Assembly: GCA_030263455.1 (NCBI GenBank)
Contig: SZOZ01000005.1
Location: 1 to 64,000 of the forward strand
Direction: 5' to 3'
From: Synechococcales cyanobacterium CNB
GTDB taxonomy: Bacteria > Planctomycetota > Phycisphaerae > Phycisphaerales > UBA1924
DNA: 64,000 nucleotides
In this document: positions 46,510-54,354 of the stretch, one piece after another
Position numbering within the stretch: the stretch's first letter is position 1
Layout of the letters: every line of letters begins with the position of its first letter
Notes under the pieces: model-generated
The model's database searches: none
The model's input: the letters and a program-made list of their open reading frames with translations, nothing else
What the model was told of the DNA's origin: nothing
Translations under genes and position numbers: made by a program

Positions 46510-47856
46510 CTACGCGACCGGCGCGGTGCCCTCGACGGGACGGTCCTCGACGGCCATGGGGTGCGTCGGCGCGGCGCTCACTGCCTCGCCGGGCATCGGG
46601 TTGAACCTCGACCCGTACAGCGGAATCTTGCGGTTGGGTTCGTGACGAGGGAGCAGCGGCAGCAGCGCCACGGACAGCACGACGATCGCGGCGTTCGCCA
46701 GCAGCATCGGCAGCATCCCCGTCCAGCCGAGGTGGACCATCACGCTCGTGACCACCACCACCGCCAGCGAGAGCGGGATCAGCGCCTGCCAGCCGAGCAC
46801 CATCACCTGGTCGTAGCGAAGCCGCGGCAGCGTCCAGCGGATGACGATCATGAAGCAGACGAGCGCGAGCACTTTGCCGAAATAGACGGCGAACTTGGCC
46901 AGCACGCCCGCGAGCGTGACGTTGTCCGGGTGCAGCCAGTGCGTCGCGCTGATGAACCCGAGCGGGAGGTGGTAGCCGCCGAGAAAGAGCAGCGCGAAGA
47001 ACGCGCAGCCCGTGATCATGTGCGCGTACTCTGCGAGGAAGAAAAGCGCGAACCGCATCGACGAGTACTCGGTGTGGTAGCCGCCGACGAGTTCCTGCTC
47101 CGCCTCCGCGTTGTCGAAGGGGGCGCGGTTGCTCTCTGCCAGGGCGCAGCAGAAGAACAGCACCGCCGCGACCGGCTGGGCGAGGATGAGCCATCCGTGC
47201 TCGACCTGGTGGCGGATGATCGCCTCGGGCATGACGGCCCCAGTGAGCAGCAGCGCGGCCAGCAGCGACAGGGCGAGCGGGATTTCGTAGGAGATCATCT
47301 GGGCCGTGGCCCGGAGGCCGCCGAGGAACGAGTACTTGTTGTTGCTCGCCCAGCCGCCGAGCGTCACGCCGTACACGCCCAGCGACGCGACGGCGAGGAT
47401 GTAGATGATGCCCACGTTGACGGGCGCGCCCGCGACATACACCCGCCCGCCCTCGACCTCGCCGACGAGCGGCAGGGTGAAGGTCGGCACGTCCCACATG
47501 CCGCCCCACGGGATGAGCACGAAGCCCATGAGGGCGGGGATGATGACGGCCATCGGGGCGAGCGTGAACAGGGCCTTGTCGGTGCGCTCGGGCGTGTAGT
47601 CCTCCTTGAGCATGAACTTGAGGCCGTCGGCGAGGGGTTGGCCGAGGCCGAGGCACCCGCGGAGGAACTTGAGAGCGGGCAGGCCGAAATCGAACCCGAC
47701 GCGGTTGGGGCCGATGCGGTCCTGGATGTAGGCGGAGATCTTCCGTTCGAGGTAGATCAGGTAGGCCACCGTGATCAGGATCACGTGGACGACCACCACG
47801 ATCAGGACGACGCTGACGACGAACTGGGCGGTGACGATGTCGGCGAGGTTCAGCAC
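46510..47856 (-). CDS. nuoH: NADH-quinone oxidoreductase subunit H (isolated gene)
   Basis: A 448-residue membrane subunit of complex I forming the quinone chamber. Diagnostic sequences are ERKISAYIQDRIGPNRVGF, AESNRAPFDNAEAEQELVGG and YHTEYSSMRFALFFLAEYAH, with about eight to nine helices. It is longer than E. coli NuoH because of a C-terminal extension. No other nuo gene is in the window; it follows the molybdopterin operon on the same strand after 217 bases. The GTG at 47856 is set by TACAGT seven bases upstream and by the family start. Confidence 0.93.
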   Translation of the reverse strand: MLNLADIVTAQFVVSVVLIVVVVHVILITVAYLIYLERKISAYIQDRIGPNRVGFDFGLPALKFLRGCLGLGQPLADGLKFMLKEDYTPERTDKALFTLAPMAVIIPALMGFVLIPWGGMWDVPTFTLPLVGEVEGGRVYVAGAPVNVGIIYILAVASLGVYGVTLGGWASNNKYSFLGGLRATAQMISYEIPLALSLLAALLLTGAVMPEAIIRHQVEHGWLILAQPVAAVLFFCCALAESNRAPFDNAEAEQELVGGYHTEYSSMRFALFFLAEYAHMITGCAFFALLFLGGYHLPLGFISATHWLHPDNVTLAGVLAKFAVYFGKVLALVCFMIVIRWTLPRLRYDQVMVLGWQALIPLSLAVVVVTSVMVHLGWTGMLPMLLANAAIVVLSVALLPLLPRHEPNRKIPLYGSRFNPMPGEAVSAAPTHPMAVEDRPVEGTAPVA

Positions 47857-48073
47857 GGGGCCAACTGTAGTGGGTCCGCAGGCAGATGGCCAAACGGCCA
47901 AAGGGATAGGAAGGCGGAACGGGGGGTCGAGGAGGGAAGCGAGGAGGATACGGGAAGCGGAGGATGGTGGTTGGGGAAGCGGAAGGGGGGACATCAGGCA
48001 GGACCGGCGGTTGGATTGCAGCCGGGCCGCTTTCGTCCCCGAGCCGCCGCCACGGTCGGAACGGCAAGCCGTT
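47857..48073. other. purine-rich intergenic region upstream of nuoH
   Basis: On the plus strand 47895-47993 is nearly all purine with repeats of GAGGAGG, GGAAGCG and similar. No gene is seen. TACAGT (minus strand, 47864-47869) seven bases before nuoH, with TTGGCC 18 bases further upstream, is a candidate promoter giving a leaderless nuoH mRNA. Confidence 0.45.
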
Positions 48074-50704
48074 CTACGCCTCGACCGGCTTGAGGGTGAC
48101 CTGGGTGTCGTAGAACGAGACGCTGCCGCCGATGGGATCGAACATGCAGGTGTTCGGCACCTGCGGGTCGGTCCACATCGCGGCGTTGGCGTGGACGCCG
48201 GCCTGCCGGCGTTTCTCGGCGCGGATGACGTGCCCATCGATCTCGACGTCGCTCGCGCCTGTCGCCCAATGGCCGAAGCCGAGGGCGAAACTGACGACGC
48301 CGGGGCGCATCGTCTGCGTGAGCATCACCTTGCCGACCATCGGTTGGTTGTGGTCCGCGGTCAACGGCCACTCGCCTCTGGTGTTCGTTGCGCTCGTCAC
48401 CTTCACCAGTTGGCCCTGCCGAAGGCCGAGGCGTGAGGCGTCACGCGGGTTGATGAGGATGCCGTTCTCGGGCATGATCGGCGTGAGCCACGGGTTGGTG
48501 ATCGTGCGGCTCTTCGTCTGGGTGATGGTGCGGTGCGTGATGAGCGTGAGGTCGTGCCCCTGTCGGAGGGCGTCCGGCTCCCGCCCCGAGAAATCCCGGA
48601 TCGGCACGTCGGTCGCGTATCCCGGGTACGGTCGGCCGGTCCCGGCGTGGATCGTGGCCGCGGTCTTCTCCTGGTAGAGATTGAGCTGCGCGGCGTAGGT
48701 GTTCGCGACCATTCTCCCCTTGTAGCAGGCCTCGTGATCCTGGAAGCGCCCGCCGCGGTTGAGCACGTAGACGACCTTCGGCCAGATCGCCTCGCCCACG
48801 ATGCCCTTCCAGCGGTCCGGATCGAACACGCTCCTGGGCAGGTGCCGGCGTGCGCGATGGAAGATCTCCATCTCGCGTGCATCGGCGTCGGGAACGGCCT
48901 GCGAGCCGTCGGTCTTCTCGCCGAACGCGAGGTTGGCCACCCCGCGCAGGTAGTAGTCGTCGGGATGCACGAGGTCGAGGCCGTCGCCGAAGCCGTTCGG
49001 GCCGAAGCCCGGCAGTCCGAGGCGCTCGGCAATGCCGAGCATCATGGCTTCGAACGAGAGGGGCATTCGCCGGCCGTAGACCTCGCACTGCTCGGGGATC
49101 GGAGCGATCGCGGGCTGCCGCACCGGCTGGACCTTCGCGGGGATGTTCGGGTGCGAGCCTTGGAACTCCCAGCGTTCGAGGAACGAGAGGTCGGGGAAGA
49201 TGTAGTCCGCGTACATGGAAGTCGTGCCGACGATGATGTCGTTGCAGATGAAGAGCGGGAGGCGGTTGACGTCGCGCAGTACCTCTGCGTTCGTGTGGCC
49301 GGCGGGCAGGGCGTAGGTCGGCGCGGCCATGTACTGGATGAGCGCCTTGATCGGGTAGGGATAGGCGTCGCCGATCGAGGGGATGACCTCTTGGTACATG
49401 TCGCTGGCGAGCGGGTACCAGTTGCGCTTCGCGGGATAGCCTGCGAAGAGCGTGGTCTTCTCGTAGTCAACGTCGTGGCGGATGCTGGAGATGCCGAAGG
49501 GCTTGATCGCCCCCGGATGCGTGTTGAGGTTGAACAGCCCTCCCTTGCCCATCGTGTCCCATGCGGCAGCGGCGATCATCCCGCCCGAGTGGTCAAAGTT
49601 CCCGAGCAGCATGTTCAGGCACATCCAGGCGAGCACGGCGTAGAACCCGTTGGTGTGCTGAGCCGGCCCGCGGTGGATGTCCACCGCGGCCGCGCTGCCC
49701 CAGCGGGCCAGTTCGCGAGCGACGGCCGTCACGTCTTCCACACGGCAGTCCGCCATTGCGCACCACTCGGCGATCTCGTGCTGCATCGAGGACTCCCTGA
49801 GAATCTGCAGCCCGGTCTTGACCGCCGTACCGTCGGGGAGCGTCGTGTCTACGAACAGGTCGCCCTCGACCGGAGCGGTTGTACTGTTGGGATCGACGGC
49901 GGTGGGGACACCGGCCACCATCGCCACGAGTTCGTGCCCCTCCGCGAGGCCGAGGTCCTTCGCGCGGACGAAGCGCGTCGGCACGCCGTCGCGCAGTGCG
50001 ACCAGCCACGTTGAGTTCGTCCAGCAAGTCTCACCCCGTGCGTTCGCGGCCGCCTTGTTTGCCGCGCCGAGGAAGCGAGCGTTGTACGCTTCGTTCTCGA
50101 AGAACCACCGGATCATCGCCATGGCGAGCGGGATGTCGGAGCTTGGCTTGAGGGGCAGCCACTTCCACGCCTTGCTCGCGAGCTTGCTGAAGCGCGGGTC
50201 GGCGACCGCGATCCGCGTGGCGCCGCTTACCAGGTTCGCGGTCATGCGCACGGTGCGGTTGGGCGGGCCGTAGTTCGCCTCGAAGAGGTTCGCGCCGACG
50301 AAGAGGATGAACCGGCTGTTCTCGGCGTCGGCCTGCCAGTAGAACTTCTTGCCGCCCGTGAACTTCCCGTCCACGTACTGCTCGCTGATCGCCTTGCAGG
50401 TGAAATAGAGCGATCCCTGGCAGACGGTCGTGTGGCCGTGGGCGTTGGTGGTGCCGAGCGCGGTCGCGAATCGCTTGTAGAAGTCGCCGCGCCCGCCCTT
50501 GACGCGCCCCCAGTTCAGGACGATCTGGTTGTTCTTCGGGCCGAAGTCGGGGTGGTCGGGGTCGATCAGAAGATGCAGATGCTCGGCGTGCTTGCGTTTG
50601 AACTCCTCGACGAGCGCGGCCTTCTTCTCGCGGTCCTTCTCCGCCCAGATCGACTTGACGCCTTGGTCCATCGCGGCGGCGACGGCGGAATCCGTGAGCG
50701 CCAT
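48074..50704 (-). CDS. molybdopterin oxidoreductase, catalytic part (downstream of a frameshift)
   Basis: This 876-codon frame encodes the main body of a DMSO-reductase-superfamily enzyme. It has the molybdopterin-binding sections (HGHTTVCQGSLYFTCKAISE with a candidate Mo-ligating Cys, SRFILFVGANLFEANYGPP) and a C-terminal cofactor domain (LTLITHRTITQTKSRTIT). The general look is closest to tetrathionate-reductase/CISM-type subunits, from memory. Sequence resembling the family continues upstream of its ATG in this frame (REVEGLRSL), so it is probably the 3' part of one gene broken from the 5' part at 50704-51219. Confidence 0.85.
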   Translation of the reverse strand: MALTDSAVAAAMDQGVKSIWAEKDREKKAALVEEFKRKHAEHLHLLIDPDHPDFGPKNNQIVLNWGRVKGGRGDFYKRFATALGTTNAHGHTTVCQGSLYFTCKAISEQYVDGKFTGGKKFYWQADAENSRFILFVGANLFEANYGPPNRTVRMTANLVSGATRIAVADPRFSKLASKAWKWLPLKPSSDIPLAMAMIRWFFENEAYNARFLGAANKAAANARGETCWTNSTWLVALRDGVPTRFVRAKDLGLAEGHELVAMVAGVPTAVDPNSTTAPVEGDLFVDTTLPDGTAVKTGLQILRESSMQHEIAEWCAMADCRVEDVTAVARELARWGSAAAVDIHRGPAQHTNGFYAVLAWMCLNMLLGNFDHSGGMIAAAAWDTMGKGGLFNLNTHPGAIKPFGISSIRHDVDYEKTTLFAGYPAKRNWYPLASDMYQEVIPSIGDAYPYPIKALIQYMAAPTYALPAGHTNAEVLRDVNRLPLFICNDIIVGTTSMYADYIFPDLSFLERWEFQGSHPNIPAKVQPVRQPAIAPIPEQCEVYGRRMPLSFEAMMLGIAERLGLPGFGPNGFGDGLDLVHPDDYYLRGVANLAFGEKTDGSQAVPDADAREMEIFHRARRHLPRSVFDPDRWKGIVGEAIWPKVVYVLNRGGRFQDHEACYKGRMVANTYAAQLNLYQEKTAATIHAGTGRPYPGYATDVPIRDFSGREPDALRQGHDLTLITHRTITQTKSRTITNPWLTPIMPENGILINPRDASRLGLRQGQLVKVTSATNTRGEWPLTADHNQPMVGKVMLTQTMRPGVVSFALGFGHWATGASDVEIDGHVIRAEKRRQAGVHANAAMWTDPQVPNTCMFDPIGGSVSFYDTQVTLKPVEA

Positions 50705-51219
50705 CAGCGACCGGAGCCCCTCGACCTCACGCTCTCGCAGATCTCGCGGATGGCCTGCTCGAACGGGATGGTGATCCACTTGTTCTCGCCGCGCTGTCCC
50801 GCGCGCTTGAGTACTTTCCGCAGCCGGTAGGGGTCGTAGGCGGTCTGGAGACCCGCCTGCCCCTTCGGGCACAGTGCGCCATCAACCGGCGCTGCGTCGT
50901 CCAGGCCCGTGGCGTAGGGGAGGTGCGGGTGGAGTGTCCACGGGCTGTAGGGGTTGCCATCGATCTTGGTGATCACGCCGTCCTGGAGTTTGCATCGGAT
51001 GCCGCAGCCGGTGTTGCACTGCAGGCAGGCGGAGAGGATGTGGTTGTCGGCGAGGGGCAGTTCGTAGGCGGCGTCCGGGCGCTTGCTGTTCATGATGACC
51101 GCGCCGGCGTGCGGGTTGTCCTGCGCGTGGGAGACCGCTGGCACGATGCCCGCGCCGAGGAGGGCGCCGCCCGCAAGGAACTGCCGACGGGACTGGATGG
51201 AGGCGTTCTGGATGTCCAT
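50704..51219 (-). CDS. molybdopterin oxidoreductase, Tat-signal and Fe-S part (upstream of a frameshift)
   Basis: A 171-codon frame with a twin-arginine signal (SRRQFLAGGALLGAGIVPAV), a [4Fe-4S] motif (CLQCNTGCGIRCK, with a fourth Cys in ALCPKGQAG) and the start of the catalytic fold (WITIPFEQAIREICE). It then runs out of register and stops at TGA 50706-50704, overlapping an ATG in the next frame (TGATG). Reading one base back after ICE restores the family sequence. Joined, the protein would be about 1040 residues, normal for the family. Sequencing error, true mutation or coupled split gene remain possible. Confidence 0.8.
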   Translation of the reverse strand: MDIQNASIQSRRQFLAGGALLGAGIVPAVSHAQDNPHAGAVIMNSKRPDAAYELPLADNHILSACLQCNTGCGIRCKLQDGVITKIDGNPYSPWTLHPHLPYATGLDDAAPVDGALCPKGQAGLQTAYDPYRLRKVLKRAGQRGENKWITIPFEQAIREICESVRSRGSGR

Positions 51220-51233
51220 GACGCTCGCCTTTC

Positions 51234-52442
51234 TCACGCGGCCCTGACCGCGAACGCTTTGCTGATGCGACGCCCGACGAAGTAGACCGCCATGCCCACC
51301 GCGATCAGGAAGAGGCCGACCAAGTACTCCATCGCGGTGGCGTGGTAGGTGTAGTTCAGCCTGGGGTGCTGGAACGCTTCCTGAAGGCCCCTGATCTCGC
51401 CGATCGCCTGGCCGGGCACAAGCACGTTCAGGCGTGCGCTGATGAACGCGACAGCGACGAGCAGCCCGGCGATGATCCAGGCGCCGGGGCGGCGGGTGAG
51501 CAGCAGCGCGAACGGCAGGAGGCCGCCGATGCTGAGGTGTACGATCCAGAACACCCACCAGTATGGCCCGAAGAGGACGAGTTCCAGCGCGGGCGCATGC
51601 GACTGCGTGTTCCAGAAGACGATCGAGAATTCTGCGAACTCGAGCAGGAAATACGCGACCAGCCCCGCGAGCACGATCGACCGCAAGCGGGCCAGCGCCG
51701 CGGTGAAGACGACGGGGTCGGCGTCGCCGTAGCCGGCGGGGCTGTCCACGCCGATGATGCCGCGGATGAGCAGGAGCATGGCCGCGCCGGCGGTGATCGC
51801 GGAGGCGAGGAACATGACCGGCAGGAGCGGGCTGTTCCAGTAGGGCTTGGCGTCCACGACGCCAAAGAACGCGCCGCTCTGGCTCGGGAACATCAGGGCA
51901 AGCAGCACACCGAGACAGAGCAGGGGTTTGAGCCAGCCGGAGTCGCGTCGGTAACTGATGAACCAGCAGACCGCGGCAACGGCCAGGAATGCGTTGTACA
52001 TCCACGCGTTGAAGGCCATCATGCTCGTGAACGCCGGCGCGGTCAGAATGCGCGACGCGCGCTCCATGTGGCCGAGGTCCAGCCACACCGCCATGAACGC
52101 CGGGACGACCGCAGCGAACGCGAGCACGATCGCCGCCCGCAGCGCGGCCGGATGCCGGAAACCCGGCAGACCGAGGATGAACCCCCCGGCGGCTACGGCG
52201 AACGCCCCGCCCGCGATGCCGACGCCGTGGAAGTAGATGGCGATCCACAGCCCCCAGGGCACGTAGGAGCCGTAGCCCGCGGGCAGGTGCCCGTGAGCGA
52301 TGCGCTGGTACATGCCGATCGTGCCAAGCCCCAGGAACACGATCCAGAGCAGCCAGAGTGCGGCGGTCCAGATTCGCTTGCCGTGCGCGGCCGGCGCGGA
52401 CATCGCGGTGTGTGTCGCCCGGCTTGTCGAGAGCGTCGTCAT
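51234..52442 (-). CDS. NrfD/PsrC-type quinone-interacting membrane subunit
   Basis: A 402-residue membrane protein with about nine to ten helices and the NrfD/PsrC pattern (YGSYVPWGLWIAIYFHGVGI, LDLGHMERASRILTAPAFTS). It would exchange electrons between quinones and the periplasmic Fe-S and molybdopterin subunits. GGAGA precedes the ATG at 52442. It lies between the Fe-S gene (16-base gap) and the molybdopterin gene (14-base gap), the usual three-subunit arrangement of a complex iron-sulfur molybdoenzyme. Confidence 0.9.
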   Translation of the reverse strand: MTTLSTSRATHTAMSAPAAHGKRIWTAALWLLWIVFLGLGTIGMYQRIAHGHLPAGYGSYVPWGLWIAIYFHGVGIAGGAFAVAAGGFILGLPGFRHPAALRAAIVLAFAAVVPAFMAVWLDLGHMERASRILTAPAFTSMMAFNAWMYNAFLAVAAVCWFISYRRDSGWLKPLLCLGVLLALMFPSQSGAFFGVVDAKPYWNSPLLPVMFLASAITAGAAMLLLIRGIIGVDSPAGYGDADPVVFTAALARLRSIVLAGLVAYFLLEFAEFSIVFWNTQSHAPALELVLFGPYWWVFWIVHLSIGGLLPFALLLTRRPGAWIIAGLLVAVAFISARLNVLVPGQAIGEIRGLQEAFQHPRLNYTYHATAMEYLVGLFLIAVGMAVYFVGRRISKAFAVRAA

Positions 52443-52458
52443 GGCTGTTCTCCGATCG

Positions 52459-53415
52459 TCACACGATGTAGAAGACGCGCGGCTTTGTGCCCTTGTGCGG
52501 CAGGAGCGTCTGCACGTTGTGCTTCGTCACGAGTTCCGTCACCAGGCTGTCCGGGTCGTTGGCGTCGCCGAAGTATGTCGCCCGGCCGATGCATGACGTC
52601 GCGCATTGGGGCAACTGGCCTGCCTCGAGGCGGTGCAGGCAGAAGTGGCACTTGCGGGCGTTCCCCGTGGGCGACTGGTGCCCCTCGCGGCGCCAGGCCT
52701 TGCCGTATTCGTGGCTCGGCTGGTCCGCCCACGGGGCCTGTGCGCCGAACATGGGCGACTCATCGCCCTCCGGGCAGCCCTGGGCCACGCCGTCGGTGTA
52801 GTTCTCGCCGAAGTCGCTCGTGCGCGCGCCGTAGGGGCACGCCGCGATGCAGTAGCGGCATCCGATGCACTTGTCGTAGTCGATCGCGACGATGCCGTCC
52901 GCACGCTTCCAGGTCGCGTTGACGGGGCAGACGGGCACGCACGGCGGACTGTCGCACTGCATGCACGGGCGTGGGGTGAACCGAAGTTGCACGTTCGGGA
53001 ACTCTCCGAACTCCTCGGTGACCACGGGTCGGTAGACCACGCCGGGGGGCAGGTGATTCTCGGCGATGCACGCGATGGTGCAGGCGTGGCAGCCGACGCA
53101 CTTGCGGGTGTCGATCACCATGATCCACCGCCGCTGCTCCACCGGCTTGGCCATCGCCTTGACGAGTTCACGCTGCATGCGGAGCAGCACGTCCTCGTCG
53201 GCGCGGGCGGGGAGGTTGTTCAGGACAGGCAGGCTGCGGATCGTGCCGGGGCCCGACGGGTCCGGCGGCGCCTTGGCGCGTCGGGCCAGCACGGCGGTCC
53301 CCCCGGCAACAGCGAGGCCCGCGCCGACCAATGCGCCCGCCCGAACCGCCTCGCGCCTGGTCATGCAACCGTTGGAACCGCGGACGCCGGCGCCGTCTGT
53401 ATTCGCCTGGTTCAT
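52459..53415 (-). CDS. periplasmic four-cluster ferredoxin-like subunit
   Basis: A 318-residue Fe-S protein with a twin-arginine signal ([20 protein letters not shown]). Four cluster motifs are seen in order: [39 protein letters not shown] and [20 protein letters not shown]. This is the standard electron-transfer subunit of Ttr/Phs/Psr-like enzymes. The start lies two bases after the stop of the Rrf2 gene and has GGAG at seven bases, so the two are almost certainly co-transcribed. Confidence 0.93.
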
Positions 53416-53417
53416 GG

Positions 53418-53879
53418 TCAGGCTCCGTGGGCGGAGGGTTCGGTCGCGTCGTTGGGCGTTGCCGCCCCGCCGGCCCTCCTGGCGTTGAACTCACCGACAC
53501 TCAGGATCGTGGTCCGCTTGAGGAAGGCCAGTTGCTCGGCCCGGATGGCGACCTGCAGGGCGTGCGCGGGGCAGGCGCGCTCGTCGGAGCACTCCGCGAT
53601 GCCGAGCGCGCACTTCGGGTGCAGGATGTCGTCGTCCAGTGCGACGCACAGGTCGAAGAGCGTGAGCGTGCGCGAATCCGCGCTCAGCCGGACGCCCCCC
53701 CCCTTGCCCTTGGCCGTGTCGAGCAGGCCCTTCTTCGACAGGATGTGCACGAGTTTGGCGAGGTACGCCGGCGGCGCGCCGACGGCCTTGGCGAGGGCGT
53801 CCACGCGGATCGGCCCGTCCCCATGGACCGCGAGGTGTCCCATCGCAGAGGCCGCGTAGCCGACGCTCGGACTCACCAT
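53418..53879 (-). CDS. Rrf2-family regulator with Fe-S-type cysteines
   Basis: A 153-residue winged-helix regulator. The helix-turn-helix ([20 protein letters not shown], about residues 25-44) is followed by the wing GKGGGVRLS. Cys90, Cys97 and Cys103 form a CX6CX5C pattern like the cluster sites of IscR and NsrR, with a further Cys at 78. It is the first gene of the molybdopterin operon, and the promoter in front overlaps an inverted repeat, so autoregulation is likely. A G9 run on the coding strand lies in the wing codons. Confidence 0.92.
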
Positions 53880-53905
53880 GGTCTTGGCTCCCGATCGGCG
53901 TGTGC

Positions 53906-53939
53906 AAATGACTATAAGACCAGAAGGTCATTTAGTCAA
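53906..53939 (-). promoter_or_regulatory. sigma70 promoter with overlapping operator of the Rrf2 operon
   Basis: On the minus strand TTGACT (53934-53939) and TATAGT (53911-53916) are separated by exactly 17 bases, an excellent promoter match in an otherwise GC-rich genome. AAATGAC and GTCATTT (53927-53933 and 53906-53912) form a perfect inverted repeat that covers the spacer and the -10. The start codon lies about 30 bases downstream. Confidence 0.75.
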
Positions 53940-54263
53940 GAATGGTCGGGTCTGGCCGACGAGGATCGATGTTCGTATTACGATCGGCAGCAGCTTGCTG
54001 GAAACAACCAGTCCTGGGTCACGGACGGGAATATCCGCCCCAGTGATGCCCATGACACAAGGCGGTCAGACCGTGTTGTTCGTCAGCCCAAGTGCAGAGA
54101 GGCTGAATCGGCTGGGCCGGAAGGGGCAGTCGATCCGTCACTCGTACTCGAATTCCACAAGGTCGAGGTAAGCGCGGCATGCACGAAGAGCCGGCGGTGA
54201 CTTGGTCGCGCACAGCTCTGGTTCGAAGCCCGGCTTGTGCGCTCGTCGGGGAGTCGGGGAATG
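53940..54263. other. intergenic region of lower GC, no gene recognised
   Basis: This 324-base stretch is less GC-rich than its surroundings. Short open frames exist but lack ribosome sites and recognisable products. A GGTTCGAAGCCCGG segment at about 54221 resembles a tRNA T-loop, but no cloverleaf can be completed around it. Confidence 0.4.
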
Positions 54264-54354
54264 CGGACAGGGCGGGATTCGAACCCGCGATACAGGGTGT
54301 ACCCCGTATAACGGTTTAGCAAACCGTCGCCTTCAGCCGCTCGGCCACCTGTCC
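54264..54354 (-). tRNA. tRNA-Ser (GCU)
   Basis: Minus-strand 91-nt class II tRNA with acceptor GGACAGG/CCTGTCC, anticodon stem ACGGT/ACCGT, loop TTGCTAA (anticodon GCT), a long variable arm (TACGGGGTACACCCTGTA) and discriminator G73. Confidence 0.97.

Follow-up and report, generated by a model that had tools for sequence, protein, structure and literature searches.

Four tightly packed genes on the reverse strand of contig SZOZ01000005.1 are, as judged from their sequences, an operon for a tetrathionate-reductase-type (Ttr-type) complex iron-sulfur molybdoenzyme (CISM) with B-C-A gene order, predicted export by the Tat pathway and an NrfD-type anchor. The window, by which we mean the whole stretch of 64,000 nucleotides analysed (positions 1 to 64,000 of that contig), also holds nuoH, a complex I gene, just beyond the operon. 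The catalytic gene is broken in this assembly. We propose that the operon has a dedicated Rrf2 repressor, that the enzyme would reduce an oxyanion, and that nuoH became a neighbour of the operon by rearrangement. We assign a probability of about 0.8 to this explanation as a whole. Against it count the scores of the A and B subunits, which are below the cut-offs for TtrA and TtrB, the break in the catalytic gene, and the lack of a TtrS/TtrR pair adjacent to the operon.

The first gene of the operon encodes an Rrf2-family regulator of 153 amino acids (53418–53879; Pfam PF02082, E 2e-21; TIGR00738, 72.5 bits against a cut-off of 73.3). It is followed by the B subunit, a ferredoxin-like Fe-S protein resembling TtrB and DsrO (52459–53415; Fer4_11; NCBIfam TtrB 177.7 bits and DsrO 172.3 bits, both below cut-off), and by the C subunit, an NrfD-type membrane anchor (51234–52442; PF03916, E 1e-24, over the Pfam cut-off; DsrP 72 bits, below cut-off). 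The A subunit comes last and lies in two pieces. Its N-terminal piece (50704–51219; PF04879, E 6e-9) carries an SRRQFL Tat motif and the [4Fe-4S] cysteines and runs to a stop after a frameshift, and its C-terminal piece (48074–50740; TtrA model NF011567, 371 bits; PF00384, PF01568) contains the molybdopterin and dinucleotide-binding domains. The gaps between the Rrf2, Fe-S, NrfD and molybdopterin genes are 2, 16 and 14 bases, and a sequence-only reading of this DNA had the order and the packing right. Upstream of the regulator is a sigma-70-like promoter, TTGACT-17-TATAGT (53911–53939, reverse strand), the one promoter found by a scan that gave a mean of 0.1 in shuffled sequences; a similar one is present in G001, a genome of the same genus. 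A tRNA-Ser gene lies at 54263–54354, about 0.3 kb upstream of the promoter, and in G001 a different tRNA gene, tRNA-Glu (L018 15095–15171), lies 35 bases past the operon.

The profile matches, the B-C-A order, the NrfD anchor and the Tat motifs bear out the CISM-type enzyme that had been suggested from the sequence. Among the families, the C-terminal piece matches TtrA by far the best (371 bits, versus 141 for PhsA and 89 for ArrA), and so does the intact A protein of G001 (440 bits, versus 188 for PhsA). The TtrA cut-off of 1750 bits is nevertheless missed, by the two window pieces (371 and 57 bits) and by intact G001 alike, and the ArrA cut-off of 1600 bits is missed by the C-terminal piece; the gene order, too, is BCA and not CAB or AB. 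Likewise, the anchor scores below the DsrP, HmcC and NrfD equivalog cut-offs. By eye, the Tat motifs are SRRQFL on A and TRREAV on B, the latter falling short of the full consensus.

We collected 72 related enzyme loci from two genome collections (57 and 15). Among the 59 that have 2300 or more bases of upstream DNA, B was found in 58/59, C in 47/59, and the B-C-A order in 47/59; a Tat-like motif was seen on A in 43/59 and on B in 27/59, with a loose pattern and uncertain starts. In all 65 aligned rows, the window included, a cysteine occupies the column aligned with HSSVC of ArrA, and this residue we take to be the molybdenum ligand. Two full B-C-A sets stand in tandem in one MAG (L039, about 1.5–13 kb), and another locus (L043) carries two A genes.

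The closest parallel among known systems is tetrathionate reductase, TtrBCA, which shares the B-C-A order, twin-arginine motifs on A and B, the NrfD-type anchor and the presumed-molybdenum cysteine column. Duval et al. 2008 (PMC2500031) describe this arrangement for the Ttr clade: gene order B-C-A, an NrfD anchor, and a Tat motif on B as well as on A. The likeness has limits: the window operon has Rrf2 where TtrBCA has TtrSR, the intact relative reaches 440 bits against the cut-off of 1750, identity to an annotated plasmid TtrA is about 29%, and the two lie apart in the tree. PsrABC/PhsABC and ArrAB(C) have the same enzyme fold as the G001 model, but their order is ABC or CAB/AB (PMC2500031), versus BCA here, and their family scores are lower. 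The predicted structure of the intact G001 protein (mean pLDDT 85.5, pTM 0.88) matches polysulfide reductase with Z 31.7 at 2.8 Å over 673 residues. Near-ties are acetylene hydratase (Z 31.0) and a formate dehydrogenase (30.9), some NapA rows lie within 1 to 1.1 of 31.7, and ArrA, the top match by Foldseek, has Z 29.6 over 717 residues. The modelled fold thus supports the enzyme superfamily and does not separate substrates.

A quick tree of 66 rows, from which loci without a full-length A gene were omitted, kept 61 family rows. These 61, the window among them, lie apart from the TtrA, Azospirillum, Citrobacter arsenatis and Halomicrobium rows (SH-aLRT 99), a separation to be read with long-branch warnings and with one named TtrA in the set. 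Window and G001 group with the L039 MAG, among mixed Planctomycetota, Thermodesulfobacteriota, Myxococcota and others; phylum names are those of the submitters' record titles, and bins may contain foreign contigs. We tentatively suggest that the enzyme is a member of an uncharacterised clade of molybdoenzymes, a neighbour of tetrathionate reductase yet distinct from it. Judged by record titles, this clade extends over about fifteen bacterial phyla plus one archaeal MAG, and the enzyme may use an oxyanion other than tetrathionate. In some members of the clade the enzyme would be encoded beside PhnD-like sensors or anion porins, or within a PhoBR-Pst cluster, and part of the clade would be switched by a dedicated, self-regulating Rrf2 sensor encoded by the first gene of the operon.

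The catalytic gene had been read as one large open frame. Its family is confirmed by profile, but the single frame is not: a 37-base deletion relative to G001, with its junction at 50733–50734 on the reverse strand, had been overlooked. The missing segment contains a GG-x-[LI]-F motif kept in 63/64 aligned rows, and the gene is whole in G001, G071 and G074, the three other enzyme-bearing genomes. A programmed frameshift was considered and rejected, as 37 bases of a conserved segment are gone. The A gene is likewise in two pieces, at different places, in two MAGs (L126, from G098, and L092).

In this assembly, then, the copy of the catalytic gene either yields no enzyme or is an assembly error. 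Because dN/dS versus G001 is 0.11 on either side of the break, the break would be recent or an error. A genuine recent pseudogene is a possibility that we rate a little below even. The size of the deletion, which is no homopolymer slip, and the removal of a conserved segment speak for it, as does the absence of any further match to the catalytic gene in the genome at E 1e-60 or better. On the other hand, dN/dS versus G001 across all four operon genes is 0.07–0.23, that is, purifying selection, so that any loss must be recent, and the absent stretch is very G+C-rich and could have dropped out in assembly.

What controls the operon? The sequence-only reading had envisaged redox or NO control. 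An Fe-S-type Rrf2 regulator is borne out, and it is NO in particular that is not. The operon is probably under this regulator, to judge from the protein and its promoter. The Fe-S gene is immediately preceded by Rrf2 in the window and in 6/72 loci (L044, which is from G001, and L038, L046, L115, L078 and L039), and C-x6-C-x5-C occurs in 6/7 aligned regulators, that of the window included. The promoter spacer of the window contains an operator-like palindrome, ATGACC-ttct-GGTC (searched pattern, 53910–53931), and the promoter hexamers of both window and G001 flank ATGACC-TTmT-GGTC. When both genomes were searched with up to three mismatches, the pattern was found only at their own operon promoters, which is a weak test of uniqueness because the pattern was built from these two sites and includes part of the −10 box. 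Palindrome and regulator together fit a self-regulating repressor with a single target: Rrf2, bound to the palindrome between −35 and −10, would repress its own operon until its Fe-S cluster is lost or changed.

The regulator shares family and three clustered cysteines with IscR, RirA and NsrR. It differs from them in scoring below every specific cut-off, in its spacing of C-x6-C-x5-C, and in that its only operator-like match found is at its own operon. The regulatory part of our explanation is weakened because Rrf2 was found in only 6/72 relative loci and the palindrome was compared in two genomes only. In other members of the clade, PhnD-like proteins occur together with sigma-54 activators or kinases, and control therefore differs between branches.

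The gene nuoH (46510–47856, reverse strand, GTG start; PF00146, E 4e-110) lies outside the operon, on the same strand, 217 bases beyond the molybdopterin gene. Two readings of this arrangement had been offered from the sequence: a chance neighbour, or a membrane partner in an unusual electron-transfer unit. The comparison of gene order in relatives, proposed at the same time, decides for the former. The Ttr-like enzyme is present in 4/81 genomes, its own included, and in none of the other three does nuoH adjoin the operon: in G001 they are on opposite strands with 19.6 kb between them, in G074 about 757 kb separates them, and in G071 they are on different contigs. NuoH is thus an ordinary, dispersed complex I gene and its adjacency is a lineage-specific accident; NuoH and the enzyme as a conserved unit are already refuted.

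For the partnership there is the shared strand, the distance of 217 bases and the lack of another nuo gene nearby among six subunits tested. Against it, nuoH is the sole copy in a genome that carries other complex I genes; NuoH is present in 79/81 genomes, versus 4/81 for the enzyme; no NuoH match was obtained at the 72 enzyme loci (flanks up to 10 kb, some much shorter); and the box next to nuoH is kept in G001, where the operon does not adjoin. Together with the positions in G001, G074 and G071, these points leave the membrane partner a very improbable reading.

That box, CTACAGTT (TACAGT), stands directly before the GTG and is identical in G001; it is the ‘own promoter-like box’ of the sequence-only reading. 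A sigma-70 scan of 47700–48200 gave no promoter. Of 19 nuoH stretches examined for it, 9 gave a row, one of these without upstream DNA; in the 6 readable stretches besides window and G001, TACA was seen in 4 (further up in L023) and TATC or TACC in 2.

We propose that nuoH came to lie beside the operon by rearrangement. From the A-gene stop to the promoter, window 48074–53940 corresponds to a single inverted block in G001 (C35:105061–99156), and the collinearity stops 18 bases before the nuoH start. One local inversion between nuoH and the operon was tried as an explanation and rejected. Since G001 C35:50000–130000 contains nothing that matches the sequence between window position 54000 and contig position 104000, the rearrangement must have been more complex than that.

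The isolation of nuoH had been noted correctly: tblastn with the genome's own NuoD, G, J, L, M and N matched nothing in the window or the next 40 kb. The genome (98.7% complete, 17 contigs) has a single nuoH match, and the search for a second copy, also recommended earlier, found instead nuo genes simply scattered over contigs. Thus, nuoD is on contig C10 amid unrelated genes, nuoG on contig C2 (NuoG model E 1e-117, 394 bits, below the cut-off of 470), and nuoJ, K, L, M and N at the start of contig C1, nuoJ scoring below its cut-offs. The pattern extends to relatives. In G037, which is one contig, the positions are 0.49 Mb for nuoH, 0.88 Mb for nuoL/M/N and 1.79 Mb for nuoD, and the scatter is similar in G068, G074 and G076 (two contigs); the tightest spacings among relatives are 11 kb between nuoH and nuoD (G079) and 24 kb between nuoH and nuoL/M/N (G025). 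A search of 18 nuoH stretches from 17 relatives for nuoD, G, J, L, M and N gave no match; its four C1 queries were fragments, and it ran without a positive control. A literature search on nuo scatter in planctomycetes returned nothing on the subject. Two nuoH matches are listed in 17/81 genomes, several pairs being of clearly unequal frame length; the two of G060 are parts of one frame, and the second of G026 is a fragment. Because the sampled members of the order have their complex I genes dispersed, a lone nuo gene in them does not signal a new complex, and the false lead of a NuoH joined to a molybdoenzyme is removed.

As to function, we propose that the four genes form one transcription unit and that the NrfD subunit would oxidise quinol in the membrane. 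From there, electrons would travel by way of the clusters of the Fe-S subunit to the molybdenum subunit, both of them Tat-exported, and in the periplasm the latter would reduce an oxyanion. This would be most likely a sulfur oxyanion, for example tetrathionate or thiosulfate, with arsenate, selenate and others possible. Such a course has a precedent in TtrABC, described as a quinol:tetrathionate oxidoreductase whose A and B subunits lie on the P-side (PMC8076601). A sulfur substrate is favoured because Ttr-type proteins are abundant in Desulfolithobacter during thiosulfate disproportionation (PMC9751629). These proteins of sulfur disproportionators resemble ours in their ttrBCA arrangement (PMC9751629), and anaerobic sulfur bacteria are among the carriers of our enzyme set, which includes a Caldimicrobium MAG (L049). 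Tetrathionate itself is a guess, because the 61 family rows lie apart from the TtrA reference. Enzymes of this kind are, according to PMC12998232, indistinguishable by sequence alone. No paper was matched by a literature search for Phycisphaerae with tetrathionate reductase, nor by one on combined terms including phosphite.

The PhnD-like, porin and phosphate-uptake neighbours of some relatives would also fit a substrate other than tetrathionate, be it arsenate, selenate or a phosphorus oxyanion. PhnD-like proteins occur at 10/72 enzyme loci by tblastn (the three members scanned are PF12974), Porin_O_P genes at 5/72 (on the other strand in L117 and L121), and Pst, PhoU or PHO4 genes at 4/72 (L020, L067, L070 and L119); a PhoB/PhoR-like pair borders the G074 operon (L020) on one side, and phosphate-uptake and porin genes border it on the other. 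Control nuoH stretches of relatives had PhnD-like or Pst/PhoU/PHO4 genes in 0/18, a comparison of 315 kb with 1108 kb that covers planctomycetes only and in which the Pst/PhoU group is not significant. Neither the window nor G001 showed any of these neighbours beside its operon. Moreover, PhnD-like domains are part of the tetrathionate sensor TtrS and so do not point away from sulfur. Arsenate in particular is suggested by a distant B-C-A relative beside the ars genes of a plasmid from Citrobacter arsenatis, and by a Ttr-type protein that may reduce arsenate, cited in PMC9751629. On balance, we rate another oxyanion as less likely to be the substrate of this enzyme than a sulfur oxyanion. The enzyme is of a known kind, with a dedicated regulator. 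It points to a widespread Ttr-like clade whose substrate can be tested through the intact relatives.

Three neighbourhoods deserve description in their own right. In G074 (L020, contig 1, 1250000–1269999), the B-C-A operon lies within a phosphate cluster, with a response regulator and a PhoR-like kinase on one side and Porin_O_P, a PhoU-like protein (DUF47), PHO4, a PstS-like protein, two permeases, an ABC ATPase and PhoU on the other. The distant B-C-A operon of the Citrobacter arsenatis plasmid, typed as conjugative, occupies 2010–6814 of L135, near arsA/arsD and a gene annotated as arsC. Finally, in the genome of the window itself, on contig 1 (G000, 104000–121000, L132), a NapA-like gene scoring just below the NapA cut-offs lies near a NarG/type II-like molybdoenzyme cluster.
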